DNA from: Bryobacteraceae bacterium
Lineage (GTDB): Bacteria > Acidobacteriota > Terriglobia > Bryobacterales > Bryobacteraceae
Direction of reading: 5' to 3'
DNA: 64,000 bases
Assembly: GCA_026002875.1 (NCBI GenBank)
Contig: BPGE01000001.1
Span: 992,001 to 1,056,000 of the forward strand
Both the position numbers and the translations under genes were made by a program. Positions 1,206 through 51,782 of this stretch are shown piece by piece; position 1 is the first letter of the stretch, and every line of letters begins with the position of its first letter. The notes beneath the pieces were generated by a model. It had not been told where the DNA came from. It did not search any database and saw nothing but the letters and a program-made list of their open reading frames with translations.

Positions 1206-2366
1206 ATGGCACGCATCCATCCACTCCGCGCGCTGCGCTACACGTCCCGCGCCGGCGACATCGCCGCGCTGGCCACGCTCCCTTACGATGTCATTCCGGA
1301 AGAGCTGGAGCGCGAGTACAAGGCGCGCAGCCCGTACAACTTCGCGCACCTGATCCTGCCCCGCGGCGATTACGCGGGCGCGGCGGCGCGGCTCGAAGAA
1401 TGGCGACGCGAGGGCATCCTCGCGCAGGACCGCGAAGAAGCCGTGTTTGTCTACGAGCAGGTCTTTCCCGTGCCGGATGGCGGCGGGACGCTCGCGCGGG
1501 TCGGCTTCATCGCTCTGGGCGTCACGGAGCCCTATGGCGAAACCGTGTTCCGCCACGAGCGGACGCTCAGCGGGCCGAAAGAAGACCGTTTCCGCCTGCT
1601 CGAGGCCACGCGCGTGCAGTTCGACTCGATCTTCATGCTGTTCCCTGACCCGGAACAGGACGTGGAAGAAATGTTGCATGCCGCCGCGGCGCAGCCGACG
1701 GAGCTGGAATACACGGATCACCAGAAGACGCGGCACCGGCTGTGGCGCGTGACGGACGCGGAGTGGATCCGGCGGCTGCAGGAGAAAATGGCGCCGCGAA
1801 AGCTGCTCATCGCCGACGGCCATCACCGCTACGAGACGGCGCTGCGCATGGGGCAGGAATATACGTTGATGACCTTCGTGGCGCTGGAGTCTCCCGGGCT
1901 GCGCTGCTTTGCCACGCACCGGCTGGTGCACTCGCTGCCGGATTTCGACTGCGGCGCCTTTCTGTCCTCCCTGCCGAATCTCGCGCCCGGACCCGATCCG
2001 CTGGTCTCTCCGCCCGGCCATGTGCGCATTGGCGTTGTGACCTCGGCAGGCGGCCATCGCACAGACGTTCCGGCGCCGGACGGCGCTCTCAATGTGGTTG
2101 TGCTGCAGGACGAGATTCTGACAAAGCGGCTTGGATTGACGCCGGAAAAAGTGGCCGCGGGCGGCCATCTCTCGTACACGCGCTCGCGCGAAGAAGCGCT
2201 GGAAGCCGTCCGCTCGCGCAAGGCGCAGATCGCGTTCCTGCTCGAGGATCTCCCCGTGGACGGGCTGGCGCGCGTGGCGTTTTCGGGCCAGGTGCTGCCG
2301 CAGAAGTCCACCTATTTCTATCCGAAGCTCGGCTCGGGCCTCGTGATGTACGAGCTGCCGCGCTGA
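1206..2366 (+). CDS. DUF1015 family protein
   Basis: A 386-residue cytoplasmic protein of the DUF1015 (COG4198) family. It shows the family hallmarks: an N-terminal LRYT...PYDVI segment, the PYNFAHLILP motif near residue 40, and the highly conserved ADGHHRYETAL motif near residue 200. Length is a little below the usual 400-450. The biochemical role is not settled for most members. A relation to ParB-fold free-serine kinases has been proposed for this fold, but nothing here proves it. The ATG lies 6 bases after a CCCCCGCAG stretch with no clear ribosome site. The AlgH-like gene follows 68 bases downstream on the same strand. Confidence 0.85.
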   Translation: MARIHPLRALRYTSRAGDIAALATLPYDVIPEELEREYKARSPYNFAHLILPRGDYAGAAARLEEWRREGILAQDREEAVFVYEQVFPVPDGGGTLARVGFIALGVTEPYGETVFRHERTLSGPKEDRFRLLEATRVQFDSIFMLFPDPEQDVEEMLHAAAAQPTELEYTDHQKTRHRLWRVTDAEWIRRLQEKMAPRKLLIADGHHRYETALRMGQEYTLMTFVALESPGLRCFATHRLVHSLPDFDCGAFLSSLPNLAPGPDPLVSPPGHVRIGVVTSAGGHRTDVPAPDGALNVVVLQDEILTKRLGLTPEKVAAGGHLSYTRSREEALEAVRSRKAQIAFLLEDLPVDGLARVAFSGQVLPQKSTYFYPKLGSGLVMYELPR

Positions 2367-2434
2367 CGCGCCGCGCGCGATGATGGGAGTGCGCGCGGGC
2401 CGCGCGCAGCGCTGCTCCGCGGAGGACGATTCGC

Positions 2435-2911
2435 ATGACGCGCCGGCATCTGCTTGCGGCCGCGGCGGCCTGGATTCAGGCGCCGCCGTTTCAGTCCGGC
2501 CAGATGCTGGTGGCTGCGCCCGCGTTGCGGGACCCGGACTTCGCGCGGTCTGTCATCCTGCTGTTTTCGGTGACGGCGGATGCCGCGATGGGGCTGATGC
2601 TGAACCGCCCGCTGCCGCGCCGCGCTGGCGAGCCGCAGATGTATGCCGGCGGCCCCGTGCCCCATGGAGTCCGCTCGCTGCTGCCGGAAGCCGCCGATCC
2701 CTCCGCCGTGCGGCTGTGCCCCGGCGTGTGGCTCGTCAGCGGGCAGACGCAGTCTCCGAGGGGCCGGACGTACCTGGGCTACACCGGCTGGACCGCCGCG
2801 CAGCTGCGGCAGGAGTGGCTCCGCGGCCTGTGGCGCATCCTTCCCGGCGAGGCGTCGGCCGTGTTCGATCCGGAACCGGCAAAGCTCTGGCAGCGCCTGC
2901 AGGGACGCTGA
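2435..2911 (+). CDS. AlgH/YqgE family protein (UPF0301)
   Basis: A 158-residue protein of the UPF0301/AlgH family. Family blocks visible in order: QSGQMLVAAPALRDPDFARS, MGLMLNRPL, MYAGGPVP and RTYLGYTGWTAAQLRQE. The biochemical function of the family is unknown; AlgH was first named from alginate regulation in Pseudomonas. The N-terminus (MTRRHLLAAAAAWIQA) resembles a short twin-arginine or signal-like stretch, which is unusual for this cytoplasmic family and may mean the true start is further inside. An upstream GGAGGACG lies at a suitable distance from the ATG, which supports the start given. Confidence 0.85.
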   Translation: MTRRHLLAAAAAWIQAPPFQSGQMLVAAPALRDPDFARSVILLFSVTADAAMGLMLNRPLPRRAGEPQMYAGGPVPHGVRSLLPEAADPSAVRLCPGVWLVSGQTQSPRGRTYLGYTGWTAAQLRQEWLRGLWRILPGEASAVFDPEPAKLWQRLQGR

Positions 2912-2936
2912 TCCGCGCGGCGGCGATAATGGGGAT

Positions 2937-3764
2937 GTGTTGCGAACCGCTCTTCTGATCCTTCTGATTCTGCCGGCAGCGCTTCACGGACAGGCTGTGA
3001 TGGACGGCCTCAACGCGACCGCCTGGGTGCAGACTTCCGTTGAATACCGCGCCTGCGCGCTGCAGGCGTGGCGGTCGGCGCGGCTGGCCCTGGACCGGGC
3101 GCTGAAGGACAGGCGCTGGACTGCGGCGCTCGAGCAGACCGCGGATGCGCGCAGGCTTCCTCCGGCCATCATCGTGGATATCGACGAAACCGTGCTCGAC
3201 AATTCGCCAGGACAGGCGCGTTTCCTGGTCAGGGGCAACGGCCGGTTCTCTCCGAAAATGTGGGAGGAGTGGACTGCGGAGAGCCGCGCTGAAGCCGTGC
3301 CGGGCGCGAGGGAATTTCTGAGCGGAGCGGCGGCGCGCGGCGTGACGGTGTTCTACATCTCGAACCGCGGGCCGGAAGAGGCCGAAGCCACGCGGCGCAA
3401 CCTGACGGAAAAGGGCTTCCCCGTGCGCGAAAAAACGGCCGGCGATCTCGGCGACGCCGTGCTGCTGCGCGGCGAGCGTCCGGAATGGACGTCAGACAAG
3501 AGCTCGCGCCGCGCTGCCGTGGCCGCGCACTACCGTGTTGTCATGCTGTGCGGCGACGATCTGAACGACTTCTTCCCTGCGCGCATGAGCCAGCAGGAGC
3601 GCATGAACAAAGCGCGGGCTTATGAGTTGTGGTGGGGCGAGCGATGGATCATCCTGCCGAACCCGATGTACGGTTCCTGGGAGGATGCATTGTATGATTT
3701 CGACCGGACGCTGACGCCGCTGGAAATCCAGCAGCGCAAGCTGAAGGCGCTGCGCACGGAGTGA
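2937..3764 (+). CDS. Secreted HAD acid phosphatase, e(P4)/OlpA-like
   Basis: A secreted HAD-superfamily subfamily IIIB phosphatase of about 275 residues. The chosen start is GTG 2937, which gives a clean signal peptide (MLRTALLILLILPAALHG) before QAVMDGL. The open frame runs further upstream but there overlaps the AlgH-like gene. HAD motif I is DIDETVLDN (nucleophile and acid/base Asp), motif II is the FYISNRG segment, and the C-terminal acidic motif is LCGDDLNDF. The family dephosphorylates nucleotides and other phosphomonoesters outside the cytoplasm. No lipobox Cys is present, so it is probably soluble rather than a lipoprotein like H. influenzae e(P4). Confidence 0.85.
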   Translation: MLRTALLILLILPAALHGQAVMDGLNATAWVQTSVEYRACALQAWRSARLALDRALKDRRWTAALEQTADARRLPPAIIVDIDETVLDNSPGQARFLVRGNGRFSPKMWEEWTAESRAEAVPGAREFLSGAAARGVTVFYISNRGPEEAEATRRNLTEKGFPVREKTAGDLGDAVLLRGERPEWTSDKSSRRAAVAAHYRVVMLCGDDLNDFFPARMSQQERMNKARAYELWWGERWIILPNPMYGSWEDALYDFDRTLTPLEIQQRKLKALRTE

Positions 3765-3786
3765 GGCGCGCCAGAGCGTTTCGGGA

Positions 3787-5619
3787 ATGCCCATGAGAGT
3801 GAGCGCCGAACGCCGCACGCTGCTGTACTCGGCGGCGATCGCCTGCGCTGCCTGGTTGGCAGCCGTCCTCTTCGCGTTCACCGCGCTGGGCGGGCAGTTC
3901 GACAACAACATTTACGACTTTCTGTTCCGCGCCTCGCCGCCGCAGCCTGTCTCTTCGCCTGCCGTGCTCGTGGTGTTCGACGAACGCACCTTTCAGCAGC
4001 ATGGCGGCATCCGGCGGCTTCGGGCGAATCTCGCTTCATTGCTCGACAGAATCGCCGGGGCAAAACCGCGCGCCGTCGCCGTCGACGTCACGCTCGCTGA
4101 TCCGGGCGATGCGGAAGAAGACGCGCGCCTGGCTGCGGCCTTTGCGCGCACGCCGAATCTTGTCCTGGCCTGCGAGATGATGCCGGACGGCTCCGGCTGG
4201 CAGGACCCGGTCGAGCCGTTTCGCAGGCATGCCGCGGCGCTCGGTCATGTCTCCACGCTGGCCGGACCGTATGACGAAGTGAACCGCCGCATCACGCTGG
4301 AGCGCGTGGCCGGGCGCGAGCGGCGCTGGGCGCTTTCGCTGGAAGCGCTGCGGCTCGCTTCAGGTGCAGGCGACATCCTGTCGTCGCCCTCTGATGTCTC
4401 GGTTGGCGGAAGGGTGATCCCCTCGCGTTGGGACGAGGGGCGCCCGCTGCGAGTGCGCTATTCGGAATCGGGCGTGCCGGCGGTCTCCGCCGCGGATCTG
4501 CTTTCCGGCGGGGCGGCCGATGCGCTCAGGGACAAGGTGGTGTTCATCGGCGTGACCGCCATCTCGGCAGCGCCTGACCGGCTTTTCACTCCGCTGTCGC
4601 GCGGGCTGCCGATGGCGGGCGTGGCCATCCATGCGCAGGCGTTCCAGACCATGTATGCAGGCGCGTTCCTGACGGACGCGCCGCTGGGCTTCACGCTGCT
4701 GGCCGCGCTGGCGGCGGCATTGATGATCGCCGCCGCGTTGTCTCTGGTGCTGCGGTGGCAGGGGTGGGCGCTGGCGGCGGCCGTTCTTCTGCTCCTGCAC
4801 ATTCTTCCCTGGTTCTGTTTCCGTCAGGACCTCGTTCTGTCCGCCTCGGCGCCGGTGGCGGCCGGCTGGCTGGCGTTTCTGGGCGGCGGCGCGTTCCGGT
4901 ATCTCTTCGTCCGGCGGCGGCTGGAGATGAGCGAGGAGGCCACGCGCCGCTACCAGCAGGCGTTCCACTTCGTCGCGCACGAGATGCGCACGCCTCTGAC
5001 GGCCATCCAGGGCTCCAGCGAACTGATCTCGCGCTACAACCTGCCCGAAGCCAAACGGCGCGAACTGAGCCAGATGATCAACGCCGAGTCGAAACGCCTG
5101 GCCCGCATGATCACCACCTTTCTCGATGTCGAGAAACTGACAGCCGGGCAGATGGAGCTGCGCCTGAGCGAGTTTGCGCTGGCAGAGCTTGTCGAAGCCT
5201 GCTGCCGCCGCGCCGCCCCGCTGGCGGAGCGGAAGCGCATCCTCGTGACCAACCGCGTGCCGGACGAATTGCGGCTGAAGGCGGACGCCGAGCTTCTCGA
5301 GTATGCGGTCTACAACCTGCTTACGAATGCCGTGAAATATTCGCCGGAAGAAACCGAAGTCACCATCGGCGCCGCGTCCGGAAACGGCGAAGTCCGCCTT
5401 TGGGTGACCGACCAGGGCATCGGCATGGACGAGTCCGAACTGAAGCAGCTCTTCCAGAAGTTCTACCGGACCCGGCGCGCGGAACAGTCGGGAGAGACCG
5501 GAACGGGCATCGGACTGTCGATCGTGCGGCAGATCGTTGAACTGCACGAGGGCTCGATCCGCGTCGAGAGCGCGCCCGGCAAGGGTTCGACGTTCACGGT
5601 CGCGCTGCCCGCACGCTAA
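3787..5619 (+). CDS. CHASE2-domain sensor histidine kinase
   Basis: A membrane sensor kinase of 610 residues. Order: TM1 near residues 12-34, an extracytoplasmic CHASE2 domain (about 40-290), three hydrophobic segments (about 300-375), then HisKA with phospho-acceptor His398 in HEMRTPL. The HATPase domain has an N box (NLLTNAVKYS, near 509), a G1 box (DQGIGM, near 542) and a G2 box (GTGIGLSIV). CHASE2 senses unknown external signals in many soil bacteria. It lies 14 bases upstream of an NtrC-type regulator on the same strand, which is its probable partner. An alternative ATG lies two codons in, at 3793. Confidence 0.92.
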   Translation: MPMRVSAERRTLLYSAAIACAAWLAAVLFAFTALGGQFDNNIYDFLFRASPPQPVSSPAVLVVFDERTFQQHGGIRRLRANLASLLDRIAGAKPRAVAVDVTLADPGDAEEDARLAAAFARTPNLVLACEMMPDGSGWQDPVEPFRRHAAALGHVSTLAGPYDEVNRRITLERVAGRERRWALSLEALRLASGAGDILSSPSDVSVGGRVIPSRWDEGRPLRVRYSESGVPAVSAADLLSGGAADALRDKVVFIGVTAISAAPDRLFTPLSRGLPMAGVAIHAQAFQTMYAGAFLTDAPLGFTLLAALAAALMIAAALSLVLRWQGWALAAAVLLLLHILPWFCFRQDLVLSASAPVAAGWLAFLGGGAFRYLFVRRRLEMSEEATRRYQQAFHFVAHEMRTPLTAIQGSSELISRYNLPEAKRRELSQMINAESKRLARMITTFLDVEKLTAGQMELRLSEFALAELVEACCRRAAPLAERKRILVTNRVPDELRLKADAELLEYAVYNLLTNAVKYSPEETEVTIGAASGNGEVRLWVTDQGIGMDESELKQLFQKFYRTRRAEQSGETGTGIGLSIVRQIVELHEGSIRVESAPGKGSTFTVALPAR

Positions 5620-31964: not shown

Positions 31965-32513
31965 TCACAGGTACCTCCTCATCTGCTCGCGCACTTTCTC
32001 GCGCGCGTGATGCAGGCGCGAAGACACCGTGCCGGAGCTCAGCCCCAGCACCTCCGCGATCTGCCCGTAGTCCAGCCCGTGCCAGTCCCGCAGCAGCAGG
32101 ATCTCCCGCTGCTCCGGCGGCAGTGAACCGATCGCCGCCCACAGCCGGCCGGCCAGTTCGCTCTGCTCGGCCGCTTTCTCGGGCCCCGCCGCCGGCGACC
32201 GCAGGAGCGCCTGATCCACATCGGCTTCGGGCCGCCGCGCCCGCCGCCGCAGGTGGTCGATCGCCAGGTTGCGGATCACTGAATACAGCCACGCCGTGGG
32301 GTCGCGCGAAGGGTCGCGCTGCGGCCAGCGCTCGTGCAGCCGCAGGTAGGCCTCCTGCGTGATGTCCATCGCTTCCTCGCGATCCCCCACCAGGTGCAGA
32401 GCGAAACAGTACGCCCTCTTCCGTCCCCGCTCGAAGAACCCGGCGAAGCTCTCCGGCCCGCTTTCCGCGCTGCCTTCCGTTGTCATGGCCTGGATCTGTG
32501 TCACGGCCGTCAT
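31965..32513 (-). CDS. ECF-type RNA polymerase sigma factor
   Basis: A 182-residue sigma-70 family protein with region 2 (YCFALHLVGDREEAMDITQEAYLRLH, WLYSVIRNLAIDHLRRR) and region 4 (LPPEQREILLLRDWHGLDYGQIAEVLGLSSGTVSSRLHHAREKVRE). An ATG is used at the start. It is followed at once by its zf-HC2 anti-sigma gene. Regulated promoters were not identified. Confidence 0.93.
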   Translation of the reverse strand: MTAVTQIQAMTTEGSAESGPESFAGFFERGRKRAYCFALHLVGDREEAMDITQEAYLRLHERWPQRDPSRDPTAWLYSVIRNLAIDHLRRRARRPEADVDQALLRSPAAGPEKAAEQSELAGRLWAAIGSLPPEQREILLLRDWHGLDYGQIAEVLGLSSGTVSSRLHHAREKVREQMRRYL

Positions 32514-32736: not shown

Positions 32737-33450
32737 GGATTTCCCCTCGCATTCCGAATTCCCCTCGCGCTTGCGCGAGGGCTGCATCCCAACCGTGTTC
32801 CGCGCGCCCTACCCAGCGGATTTCCCCTCGGCCTTGGCCGAGGGCTGCATCCCAGCTGTGTCGCCTGCGCCCTACCCAGCGGATTTCCCCTCGGCCTTGG
32901 CCGAGGGCTGCATCCCAACCGTGCCGCCTGCGCCCTCCCCAGCGGATTTCCCCTCGGCCTTGGCCGAGGGCTGCATCCCAGCTGTGTCGCCTGCGCCCTC
33001 CCCAGCGGATTTCCCCTCGGCCTTGGCCGAGGGCTGCATCCCAGCTGTGTCGCCTGCGCCCTCCCTAGCGGATTTCCCCTCGGCCTTGGCCGAGGGCTGC
33101 ATCCCAGCTGTGCCGCCTGCGCCCTTCCCAGCGGATTTCCCCTCGGCCTTGGCCGAGGGCTGCATCCCAGCTGTGTCGCCTGCGCCCTTCCCAGCGGATT
33201 TCCCCTCGGCCTTGGCCGAGGGCTGCATCCCAGCTGTGTCGCCTGCGCCCTCCCCATCGGATTTCCCCTCGGCCTTGGCCGAGGGCTGCATCCCAGCTGT
33301 GTCGCCTGCGCCCTCCCTAGCGGATTTCCCCTCGGCCTTGGCCGAGGGCTGCATCCCAGCTGTGTCGCCTGCGCCCTCCCTAGCGGATTTCCCCTCGGCC
33401 TTGGCCGAGGGCTGCATCCCAACCGTGCCGCCCGGACCGCCAAAGCGAGC
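32737..33450. repeat. Tandem 63-bp palindrome repeat array 1 (11 units)
   Basis: Eleven direct repeats at an exact 63-bp period, centred on stems at 32763, 32826, 32889, 32952, 33015, 33078, 33141, 33204, 33267, 33330 and 33393. Each unit reads GCGGATTTCC, a 20-nt palindrome, then GCTGCATCCCA and a variable Pro/Ala-coding-like segment. Ten units carry arms CCCTCGGCC/GGCCGAGGG with TT between; the first carries CCCTCGCGC/GCGCGAGGG. Sixty-three is a multiple of three, so long open frames run through on both strands and are probably artefacts. Between-unit changes are few and lie outside the palindrome, pointing to recent expansion. Confidence 0.9.
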
Positions 33451-33714
33451 GATCCCCTCGAGGTCCCCAGTCCGGACGGCGCTTTTCGAGTGCCCCCATG
33501 ACCCTCCGGATCATCAGCACCAATGACAATCGCCGGGCGCGGTGCCTCGCATTGCGGTTTTTGCTGGAACAGCCAAGGAATGACGCGTTCAATATCCCGG
33601 CGGAAGAGTTTCGAGTGAACGGTCCGTCCCCGGAACCTGCGCCAGCAAATGAGCGAATGCCAGAACGGCGTGCGCGGCAAGAAAGCCCGATGCACCTCCG
33701 CAGGTCCACAGGGC

Positions 33715-34077
33715 TCAGCGCCGGCCCGCCAGTCCGCTTTCCCGCGCTTCGCGGATCTCGTTCCGGATCGTGTCCAGCACCTCTCTCAACGGGTGCTCGC
33801 CCCAGTAGACATGCTGGTAGCCGATGGCCACGCTGTGCATGAACATGACAGCCAGCCGCACGGACTCGCCCTGCCGGCGGAACACCCAGCGGTACTCGCC
33901 GCTCGAGATCAGCCAGACGCACTCGCCCATGCCGGAGATCTCGAGGTCGTCGAGCGCGGCGGACAGATCGGCCAGCGCTGCTTCCGGATCGGCGCCATAG
34001 ACGGAGTGCTCCTCCTGCCCGTCGCCCAGCACGCACTCCAGCCGGCCGAAGTCATCCATGCGGAGTGAGAAGCGCAT
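33715..34077 (-). CDS. Hypothetical protein between the two repeat arrays
   Basis: A 120-residue acidic protein without signal or membrane segment. It contains EEHSVYGADPEAALADLSAALDDLEISG, VWLISSGEYRWVFRRQGE and VMFMHSVAIGYQHVYWGEHP. No family was recognised. It lies alone between repeat arrays 1 and 2 and is transcribed against the sense of most repeat units. No strong ribosome site was seen. The coding feel (balanced composition, no repeats) supports a real gene. Confidence 0.55.
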   Translation of the reverse strand: MRFSLRMDDFGRLECVLGDGQEEHSVYGADPEAALADLSAALDDLEISGMGECVWLISSGEYRWVFRRQGESVRLAVMFMHSVAIGYQHVYWGEHPLREVLDTIRNEIREARESGLAGRR

Positions 34078-34268
34078 ACGCCCATCTTATCGAGTTCCGC
34101 ATGCGGTACTCTTTTGCCATCCTCCAGCGGCCGCGCGCCGGCAGGCCGTGCCCGGCTTCGTCGGTGCCCCGCGTTGTGCCCGCCCGGGCGGCCATCCTCG
34201 CAGGAGCCCCCATGAACCTGTGAGACCTCAGCGTTCCGGAAATCCACCGCTGACTTCCAGCGGGTTCT

Positions 34269-35155
34269 GAGCCGCGCGGGAGCAGCCCGAAGGGCTGCGA
34301 CCAAGCGGTTCAAACACAACCTCCCCCACCTTCCAACACCCTCCCCTCGCGCCGCAGGCGCGGCCAGCCCGCCGCCTTCCCCAACGGGTTTCCCCTCGCG
34401 CTCGCGCGAGGGCTGCATCCCAACTGTGCCCCCCTCGCCCTCCCCAGCGGGTTTCCCATCGCGCTTGCGCGATGGCTGCATCCCACCCGTGCTGCCTGCG
34501 CCTCTGCAAACCCTTGCCCCGCAACACCTGCCAAAACCCGAAAAAGCGATTTTACGAAACGAACCGAAACCCGCCCCGCCCAAACAGAGCCGCGCGGGAG
34601 CAGCCCGAAGGGCTGCGACCAAGCGGTTCAAACACAACTTCCCCAACCTTCCAACACCCTCCCATCGCGCCGCAGGCGCGGCCAGTCCGCCGCCTTCCCC
34701 AACGGGTTTCCCGCCGCCCTCGGGCGGCGGCTGCATCCCAACCGTGCCCCCCTCGCCCTCCCCAGCGGGTTTCCCATCGCGCTTGCGCGATGGCTGCATC
34801 CCACCCGTGCTGCCTGCGCCTCTGCAAACCATTGCCCCGCAAAACCTGCCAAAGCCCGAAAAAGCGATTTTACGAAACGAACCGAAACCCGCCCCGCCCA
34901 AACAGAGCCGCGCGGGAGCAGCCCGAAGGGCTGCGACCAAGCGGTTCAAACACAACCTCCCCCACCTTCCAACACCCTCCCCTCGCGCCGCAGGCGCGGC
35001 CAGTCCGCCGCCTTCCCCAACGGGTTTCCCGCCGCCCTCGGGCGGCGGCTGCATCCCATCTGTGCCCCCTCCCCCTCTGCAAACCATTGCCCCGCAACAC
35101 CTGCCAAAACCCGAAAAAGCGATTTTACGAAACGAACCGAAACCCGCCCCAGCCC
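34269..35155. repeat. Repeat array 2: 318-bp direct repeat containing 63-bp palindrome units
   Basis: A 318-bp segment beginning GAGCCGCGCGGGAGCAGCCC is repeated at 34269 and 34587, with a third copy from 34905 shortened to a 255-bp period. The copies share almost all bases. Inside lie palindromes of the same class as array 1, 63 bp apart: CCCTCGCGC/GCGCGAGGG at 34393, CCATCGCGC/GCGCGATGG at 34456, CCGCCGCCC/GGGCGGCGG at 34711, with the same GGTTTCCC and GCTGCATCCCA flanks. The third copy lacks exactly one 63-bp unit. Another hairpin, GCAGCCC-GAA-GGGCTGC, sits near the start of each copy. No gene was recognised in the array. Confidence 0.88.
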
Positions 35156-35505: not shown

Positions 35506-36690
35506 TCACCCGGAAGCCAGGCAGCGGCGGACCGTTTCCAGCAATTCAGCCGCGTGAATGGGCTTGGTGAGGAAGGCGGCCATGCCGCGTCGGCGGCACT
35601 GCTGTCGGAGTTCAGGGCTGACCTCGGCGGTCAGGGCGACAACCGGGATCGTCTCGTAGCCTGGAATCTCACGGAGCCGGTCGAGAGCTTCGAGGCCGTC
35701 CATGCCCGGCATGAACAGATCCATCAGCACCAGACGGTACTTCCGGCGGGCCGCGGCGTCGAGCGCCGATGGTCCGTCGCTGCAGCACTCCACTTTGTAA
35801 TCGCCTTTGGCGAGAATGGCCCGCAGCACGCGCTGGCTGACGGGGTTGTCATCGACGACAAGGACGGGGGCCTCGCCATCGGCCGGCCCGGCGCTATCGG
35901 ATCCCGGTTGGATCTGTCCTGGAACGGCGGCCGGAATTCTGGCGATCAGGCGGACCTCGCCTCGAAGCTGCTCAAACTCCAGCGAGCCCCCCATCAGCTG
36001 CGTGATGCGGCGCGCGAGGGCGAGGTCGAGAGCGAGTCCGTGAAAGTGGCCCGCGGCCGCCTGGCCCCCCGCCTCGAACTCCTCGACGAGCTCCCGCAGC
36101 GAATCCACCGACAATCCGTTGCGGCACTGCAGCACGATGGCGAGCATCACCGTGGAGGCATCTCCGCCGGCATCCAGCCGGGTACCCACCATCACGCCCC
36201 CGGAAGAGACCGTGCGGATGGCGTAGCGCAGCATGAATCTCAGCAGCTGCGTCAGACGGCCCGCGTCGGCGTGCACGATCCGCGGCAGGATCGGATCCAG
36301 CATCCACTGCAGCTCCAGCCTTCTTTCCTCCGCCTGGGCCATGAATTCGGTCATCACGGCCTGCAAAGTGTCCCGCAGGTCGAATTCGGCTTCATCCAGC
36401 CGGGCGAGGCCATTGATCAGGGAGTTGTACTCCAGCGTGTCGTTCAGCAGCTCCAGAAGTCCGCTGGCCGATTCCCGCGCCATCAGGGCGAACTCGCGCT
36501 GCTCATCGGTGAGACCAGTCTCAAGGAGCAGGTCGATGGCGCCCAGGACGCCGCTGAGGGGCGTCCGGATCTCATGGTTCAGGCTGGTCAGCAGTTGCAG
36601 CCGTTGATGACCGCCCCCGGCCGAGGTCTGGCTCGTCTGCTGGGCGGCCGCCCCGCCTGCGGGCGCCAACTCCTCTGGCCGAGTGGTCAT
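35506..36690 (-). CDS. Hybrid histidine kinase-like protein with degenerate ATPase domain and receiver
   Basis: A 394-residue soluble protein. HisKA is complete (LTSLNHEIRTPLSGVLGAID). The following region aligns with a HATPase domain, but the key boxes are lost: the N box reads RFMLRYAIRTVS instead of NLLxNAxKFT, the G1 box shows no DxGxG, and the G2 box reads GHFHGLALDLA. The C-terminal receiver is intact: LVVDDNPVSQR, phospho-acceptor Asp in RLVLMDLFMPGMDG, Thr in VVALTAE and Lys in FLTKPI. It probably cannot bind ATP by itself and may act as a phosphotransfer or docking protein. Confidence 0.82.
   Translation of the reverse strand: MTTRPEELAPAGGAAAQQTSQTSAGGGHQRLQLLTSLNHEIRTPLSGVLGAIDLLLETGLTDEQREFALMARESASGLLELLNDTLEYNSLINGLARLDEAEFDLRDTLQAVMTEFMAQAEERRLELQWMLDPILPRIVHADAGRLTQLLRFMLRYAIRTVSSGGVMVGTRLDAGGDASTVMLAIVLQCRNGLSVDSLRELVEEFEAGGQAAAGHFHGLALDLALARRITQLMGGSLEFEQLRGEVRLIARIPAAVPGQIQPGSDSAGPADGEAPVLVVDDNPVSQRVLRAILAKGDYKVECCSDGPSALDAAARRKYRLVLMDLFMPGMDGLEALDRLREIPGYETIPVVALTAEVSPELRQQCRRRGMAAFLTKPIHAAELLETVRRCLASG

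Positions 36691-51687: not shown

Positions 51688-51782
<95 letters not shown>

Follow-up and report, generated by a model that had tools for sequence, protein, structure and literature searches.

Repetitive extragenic palindromic (REP) sequences, also organized as bacterial interspersed mosaic elements (BIMEs), are short extragenic palindromes found in hundreds of copies and in tandem arrays, with a cognate Y1 gene, that of the REP-associated tyrosine transposase (RAYT, or TnpAREP) (PMC3733652, PMC3116915, PMC3686654, PMC8266576; here and below, published systems are described from parts of the papers cited). Most GTAG families comprise sub-families with alternative complementary stem residues (PMC3733652), and both compensatory changes in the hairpins of REP doublets (REPINs) and tandem arrays have been described (PMC3116915). 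The class-3 TnpA-Y1 proteins have hairpin-flanked genes, about 600 hairpin copies in Solibacter usitatus Ellin6076 and a CnGA foot (PMC6006769), and abundant short repeats are reported in the S. usitatus genome (PMC3174227). Here we analyzed two arrays of palindromic repeats in a Bryobacteraceae bacterium (GCA_026002875.1, contig BPGE01000001.1), lying in a stretch of 64,000 nucleotides, the window, which corresponds to positions 992001-1056000 of a single-contig 4.86-Mb genome. The repeats of the window belong to a genome-wide REP-like family, here named family 1, and their likely agent is a class-3 HuH-Y1 protein, a relative of the IS200 (insertion sequence 200) and RAYT transposases.

The system resembles class-3 TnpA-Y1 by its HuH and Y----Q motifs, its occurrence in Acidobacteria, its hairpin-flanked genes and the high copy number that the hairpins can reach (366 exact matches for family 1, 57 for family 2 and only 4 for family 3, the latter two families being described below), but the published 5' foot CnGA is not found at the stem (PMC6006769). 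Head-to-tail arrays and matched stem alleles are not mentioned for class 3 in the parts of that paper's main text considered here. With REP/BIME and RAYT the repeats share the extragenic position, the copy number, the matched stem variants, the tandem arrays and the cognate Y1 gene; unlike them, family 1 lacks GT[AG]G at the stem, no inverted doublets were found, and the nearby gene belongs to class 3 instead of class 2. In predicted fold and catalytic motifs the protein recalls IS200/IS605 elements such as IS608 and ISDra2; in contrast to these, only the hairpin is dispersed, with no gene in it, and the class-3 genes are three single loci. As the published feet are not at the family-1 stem, we file the family as a class-3-REP-like variant rather than a canonical REP. 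Covariation in REP stems and class-3 genes flanked by hairpins are already published; what is new, as far as we found, is the strictly head-to-tail arrays lacking a published foot at the stem and the presence of three gene-hairpin pairs in one genome. A 2025 survey of REPs tabulates three other Acidobacteriota and, in the parts considered, neither Bryobacter nor Solibacter (PMC12306157); no other title or abstract describing such a system was found in the open-licence literature on Acidobacteria REPs, Solibacter palindromes, class-3 proteins and Bryobacteraceae tandem repeats.

Array 1 (32755..33429, plus strand; 32759-33432 by Tandem Repeats Finder, TRF) consists of 11 head-to-tail family-1 units with a period of 63 bp. 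Its hairpins (32762-33411, plus strand) start with one of allele A (CCCTCGCGC, 32762-32781), followed by ten of allele B (CCCTCGGCC), the last at 33392-33411. Array 2 (34269..35155, plus strand; TRF 34269-35077) is made of 318-bp composite units, two full and one partial, each containing one family-2 hairpin, one hairpin with the tip GCGCCGCAGGCGC and one or two family-1 hairpins. The five family-1 hairpins of array 2, all on the plus strand, belong to allele A with loop TC (34393..34412), allele D (CCATCGCGC; 34456..34475 and 34774..34793) and allele C (CCGCCGCCC; 34711..34730 and 35029..35048). The family-2 hairpin GCGCGGGAGC-AGCCCGAAGGGCT-GCGACCAAGCGG is at 34274..34308 (plus strand), with more copies at 34592-34626 and 34910-34944, and the additional tip GCGCCGCAGGCGC is at 34349..34361 (plus strand), 34667-34679 and 34985-34997.

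A first-pass annotation of this stretch had claimed that every unit keeps a perfect 9-bp palindrome in one of four versions between fixed flanks. Indeed, on recount 16 of 16 window copies have perfect 9+9 arms, with allele B in ten copies and A, D and C in two each. The flank GCTGCATCCCA is constant (16/16), while GGRTTT is present in 15 of 16 units, the first having CGAATT. Copies 1 and 2 of the 318-bp unit differ at 14 of 318 sites, six of them inside the 20-nt palindrome and forming three compensatory pairs (34711-34730 compared with 34393-34412), as had been stated; the probability that at least six of the 14 differences fall there by chance is 1e-4. The 63-bp unit held as the commonest spacing only, since family 1 shows other spacings, beyond the window too: among 363 same-strand neighbours less than 400 bp apart, 232 are spaced by 60-66 bp, within a range of 39-353 bp. 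A protein-coding repeat was ruled out, as spacings of 61, 62, 63, 64, 65 and 66 bp are all present and the reading frame is therefore not kept; the open frames seen in the window result from the period of 63.

The first-pass annotation had left room for a few units with chance matches. Across the 4.86-Mb genome, TTTCC-N12-24-GCTGCATCC, the core pattern, is matched exactly 366 times (157 forward and 209 reverse; at least one of those listed, 2210081, is no hairpin) and the same pattern read backwards not once, which is far beyond chance. A looser pattern with the arms left free gave 482 matches in 600,049 bases fetched around known hits, in which arm mismatches are bimodal (0 in 372, 1 in 46, 2 in 6, 3 in 2, 4 in none and 5-9 in 56). 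The 56 matches with 5-9 mismatches were judged to be chance and dropped, leaving 426 copies, a number that is not a genome total because the 600 kb were fetched around known hits, that leaves out copies with changed arm or loop length, and that includes one row inside a gene (4005436), probably chance as well. For the second half of the genome, copies were located via alleles A (TC loop) and B only. With genes called by our own codon-usage script, 424 of the 426 copies are outside called genes, in DNA of which 78% is coding. They form 60 clusters at separate extragenic sites, in which copies run head to tail and arrays reach up to 24 units. Inverted doublets of the REPIN or BIME type were not found, and neighbouring clusters on opposite strands less than 5 kb apart occur in 2 cases among the 60, at distances above 1 kb. 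Comparison of one end copy each from 37 clusters places the limits of the element about 13-14 nt upstream of TTTC and 8-9 nt past CTGCATCC. At genome positions 2060021-2060967 (L119), units of about 303 bp contain a family-1 hairpin together with a second conserved stretch, aaaaaatcgcctaccggacacagcggttcctgtgtgggggtagcc.

The 372 perfect copies carry exactly four alleles (A 260, B 85, C 19 and D 8), with no rare re-paired allele among them, so that most arm "changes" are old alleles redistributed. The 54 imperfect copies have mostly single-arm substitutions (46: 25 in the right arm and 21 in the left). A covariation test, as had been proposed in kind, was run on 96 distinct 35-nt copies and gave a score of 0.222; shuffles scored 0.090, none of 500 reaching the observed value, and slid structures 0.014-0.058. 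Of the cells, 92.3% are paired, and 80 show a change on both sides compared with 24 in shuffles, all these tests being inflated by kinship among the copies. As there are few alleles, the number of pairs with a two-sided change, five, is an ordinary value (100 of 500 shuffles). The signal sits in the inner stem, and the link between arm class and flank markers is weak, though for several markers somewhat above shuffles. As DNA, four 40-nt family-1 cores fold better than shuffles (z -1.9 to -2.5). The first-pass annotation had proposed that pairing is under selection or that the arms are rewritten together by an unknown process. Covariation bears out that pairing matters; continuous compensation or rewriting has no support in family 1, where 46 copies are left uncorrected and no re-paired variant occurs. 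Most plausibly, the covariation reflects a small number of paired master hairpins and no compensation that goes on continually: repair of pairing within existing copies is not visible, and it is more likely that masters were multiplied, mutant copies being dead ends. Matched arm changes alone need not imply RNA or ongoing compensation.

A search of the source genome with Pfam Y1_Tnp returned two genes, at 3427295 and 2167817, and a search with the protein of the latter added two more homologues, both divergent, at 2182253 and 800893. Class-3-type genes are thus at three single loci among the matches listed, and hairpins lie near all three (3/3), on both sides of 2182253 and 800893. Downstream of the Y1 gene at 2167718, family 1 is represented by full hairpins at +510 and +578, and on both sides there is a composite repeat that carries hairpins, the upstream one partly truncated; the fraction of the genome within 600 bp of known family-1 copies is at least 2.2%, the mapping of copies being incomplete. 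Around the Y1 gene at 2182253, copies of family 2 (CCGCGCGGGAGC-stem-GCGACCAAGCGG) lie at -439, -282 and +494, of which the one at -439 has arms AGGCC/GGCCT instead of AGCCC/GGGCT with pairing kept; over the 57 exact genome matches of family 2 the arms are nearly constant. The Y1 gene at 800893 is bordered on both sides by family 3 (CGCGAGTGGA-stem-GGGAACGAGC), whose four exact genome matches are all around the gene, with arms GCGGTCC/GGACCGC in three copies and GCGCGCC/GGCGCGC in one.

Repeated hairpins were found at 4 of 20 Y1 loci (the own genome, G145, G127 and G116), compared with 1 of 80 EF-P controls (p 0.005) and none of 30 other control loci (p 0.02). In G127, CCCCGGCCT/AGGCCGGGG and CCCTGGCCT/AGGCCAGGG represent a matched arm change. 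Eight further Y1 loci were viewed singly, and three of them have repeated hairpins (L196 of G100, L201 and L202).

Several observations were made on these loci and their controls. At L196 (G100:C1:4695500-4702500, 2298-5290), three nearly identical class-3 Y1 genes repeat in tandem every 810 bp inside an array of hairpins spaced by 178-182 bp, an amplification of gene and hairpin together. The sole positive of the 80 EF-P controls is a locus of a groundwater Acidobacteria metagenome-assembled genome (L037), with the hairpin repeat GGCCCCAGACTGAAGTCTGGGGACAAAAGACG at 1105 and 1222; at L032 (DYJN01000004.1), EF-P is 96% identical to that of the source genome, whose EF-P is closest to those of Bryobacteraceae metagenome-assembled genomes. 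The RAYT-like class-2 gene at 3427295 was considered as the mover and rejected, as the inverted repeat in its flanks is another one and family 1 has no copy within 4 kb. This RAYT-like gene (L111, genome positions 3425795-3429124) matches NF047646 with 78.6 bits, just below the cut-off of 80, and is flanked by the inverted repeat AAAAGGGGACAGGAACACAATTCCCCTTTT instead of REPs (at about 1378-1408 and 2273-2303 of the locus).

The protein of the family-1 gene has H69 and H71, W108 (followed by A), Y129 and Q134, that is the HuH pair, W[TA] and Y----Q. These five residues are kept in 28 of 28 homologous hits, taken without a motif filter and including the own gene. Its next-best homologue is 42% identical, among the matches listed for 150 genomes sampled evenly from the larger family. 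The predicted model (predicted local distance difference test, pLDDT, 89) matches ISDra2 TnpA (E 4e-5) and also IS608 TnpA; the match to the RAYT-REP complex 4er8 is less close (E 2.5e-4, template modelling score, TM, 0.46-0.51).

Among the matches listed for the same 150 genomes, the expansion of family 1 is seen in the source genome only. The same-genus genome G126 has seven pattern matches, and five of the six listed are hairpins with alleles A or C. The remaining genomes have 0-5 pattern matches, compared with 0-3 for the control, and those listed do not look like hairpins. The array at 2246357 has 23 units in the source genome and 4 at the corresponding site of G126, with nearly identical outer flanks. 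At the site of array 2, one pair of matched segments is separated by 429 bp in G044 and by 1,395 bp in the source; in G126 the gap is 1,350 bp compared with 1,416 bp in the source, and no family-1 hairpin was seen in the sequence that fills it. In G126, four family-2 copies also lie at a distance of about 140-370 bp from a class-3 gene, and the family-2 arms of this genome are mostly of the GCC or AGCCC types with other loops; for family 2, matched arm alleles are clearest between genomes.

Taken together, we favour, with a probability of about 0.7, that the repeats are REP-like non-autonomous extragenic hairpins that fold as single-stranded DNA and are processed in this form by a class-3 HuH-Y1 member of the IS200/TnpAREP superfamily. 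Recognition by sequence would concern the flanks, possibly with a short base stem and internal loop (GGRT-TTC / CTGC-ATCC), and the distal 9-bp stem would mainly be required to be double-stranded; as it need only pair, its letters would be free while both arms agree. A few well-paired master hairpins would have been multiplied and dispersed between genes, copies with mutated arms being dead ends, and arrays may have grown, and whole hairpins been shuffled, through recombination between tandem units. The putative Y1 mover would cut and move the hairpins with the stem letters largely ignored. Selection most likely acts at amplification, where hairpins that fold are copied, and on single-stranded DNA rather than RNA. 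A protein that reads flanks and base and needs a folded distal stem would account for fixed flanks, free paired stems, few masters and uncorrected dead copies. In Escherichia coli, TnpAREP still bound and cleaved a REP whose upper stem was swapped to its complement and removal of that stem abolished binding, the bases of the foot and lower stem matter, and for the bulge the unpaired state, not the sequence, seems crucial (PMC8266576). In two REPs with perfect palindromes, a stem mismatch strongly cut cleavage (PMC8266576). With three gene-hairpin pairs in one genome, at 4, 57 and 366 exact matches, and natural stem variants that keep pairing, this little-studied HuH protein class could become a testable system, a natural set of mutants with which to ask which features of its hairpin a REP-type protein reads and how such elements spread.

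Several points weigh against this interpretation. The arrays of the window are 1.1 Mb away from the family-1 gene, and head-to-tail arrays could form without any transposase. No repeated hairpins were found at 16 of the 20 Y1 loci at the threshold used, nor by test at five of the eight further loci (L197, L198, L200, L206 and L125; L206 has family-2 copies by pattern). IS200-type insertion is often biased by strand or replichore, and family 1 shows no such bias, the best two-break split being matched by 30% of shuffles. Neither published foot is at the family-1 stem: CnGA is directly at the stem in 0 of 426 copies and within 12 nt of it in 110 on the element strand and 3 on the other, and GT[AG]G is directly at the stem in 0 of 426 on either strand and within 12 nt in none on the element strand and 51 on the other. 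For families 2 and 3, G100, G145, G127 and G116, one flank sequence each was tested and CnGA was absent as well; family 3 has GTGG one base away from the stem. Concerning the fold, the outer GGRT/ATCC base stem is weakly supported (column 4-32 is unpaired in 22 of 96 copies), the whole 63-nt unit as DNA folds no better than shuffles (z -0.67) and neither does one family-3 hairpin (z -0.29). Finally, in the two perfect-palindrome REPs mentioned above, stem letters had mild and loop bases strong effects (PMC8266576).

Among the alternatives, the hairpin tips may be exchangeable cassettes, a class-3 Y1 protein or a fold template switch swapping the distal hairpin with the flanks untouched, which we regard as unlikely. 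Such exchange would produce differences confined to the hairpin, toggling of A and B between near-identical spacers and one tip in several flanks. Two of the four family-3 copies, over a stretch of 136 bp chosen afterwards and bounded by the next differences, differ solely in the hairpin, by five differences (two compensatory pairs and one loop base), all 5/5 within 17 of the 136 bp. Of 40 pairs of adjacent family-1 units whose spacers differ at no more than one site, 14 combine a unit with A arms and a unit with B arms; differences per site are 0.100 in the arms compared with 0.017 in the spacer, a comparison biased by the spacer-based selection. The tip GCGCCGCAGGCGC occurs at 46 sites in the fetched DNA, in the flanks of family 3, in a family-2-like right flank and in those of the GGCCAGTCCGCC composite, as if tips were shared between families, of which common ancestry may explain part. 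Some neighbouring hairpins in arrays differ as whole blocks, which unequal crossing-over between tandem units could yield, and short-tract exchange is not proven because such crossing-over suffices; the four-gamete test of arm class against the R base was positive in 1 of 15 informative arrays, with mismatched copies dropped.

The hairpin-only differences of family 3 would equally be expected if template switching during replication rewrote one arm from the other, giving matched changes without selection for pairing, and the creation and maintenance of hairpins by template switching have been described (PMC8794818). Frequent arm correction should leave private re-paired variants; however, 46 family-1 copies keep an uncorrected single-arm substitution and no rare perfect allele is present among 372, making this explanation rather improbable. 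Plain minisatellites, in which nothing but recombination and slippage spread the four founder palindromes and pairing is a frozen accident, would agree with the restriction to four perfect alleles, with the unlike arm classes beside near-identical spacers and with the unequal unit numbers at the orthologous array. On the other hand, the 60 clusters at separate extragenic sites suggest a mover, and three fixed-flank families each have matched arm alleles and each lie near their own class-3 gene, so we hold this alternative to be improbable to a further degree. Lastly, an RNA-level element selected in transcripts (a stabilizer in the 3' untranslated region, attenuator or terminator) is very improbable: it would fit the preference of clusters for convergent over divergent gaps (21 and 9, compared with 48 and 61 for background gaps drawn from the same neighbourhoods, p 0.014) and the G-U/A-U alternation at column 3-33, but orientation relative to co-directional genes is not significant (18 to 10, p 0.18; a suggestive 13 of 17 clusters in the first half of the data was gone with more data), a T-tract after the hairpin is absent from the copies read, the Rfam structured-RNA search of the window gave no match to the repeats, and the arrays are as long as 24 units.

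The genes around both arrays are all on the minus strand. Array 1 is upstream of the 5' end of an extracytoplasmic function (ECF) sigma-70 factor gene (31965..32513), a 120-aa gene (33715..34077) lies between arrays 1 and 2, and downstream of array 2 is a predicted histidine kinase/receiver gene (35506..36690), named by sequence appearance only. DNA similar to the 120-aa gene and to the histidine kinase/receiver gene was found, for each, in 4 of 4 same-genus genomes searched. Elsewhere in the window, a 91-nt tRNA match on the minus strand (51692-51782) is the sole Rfam match at the gathering threshold.

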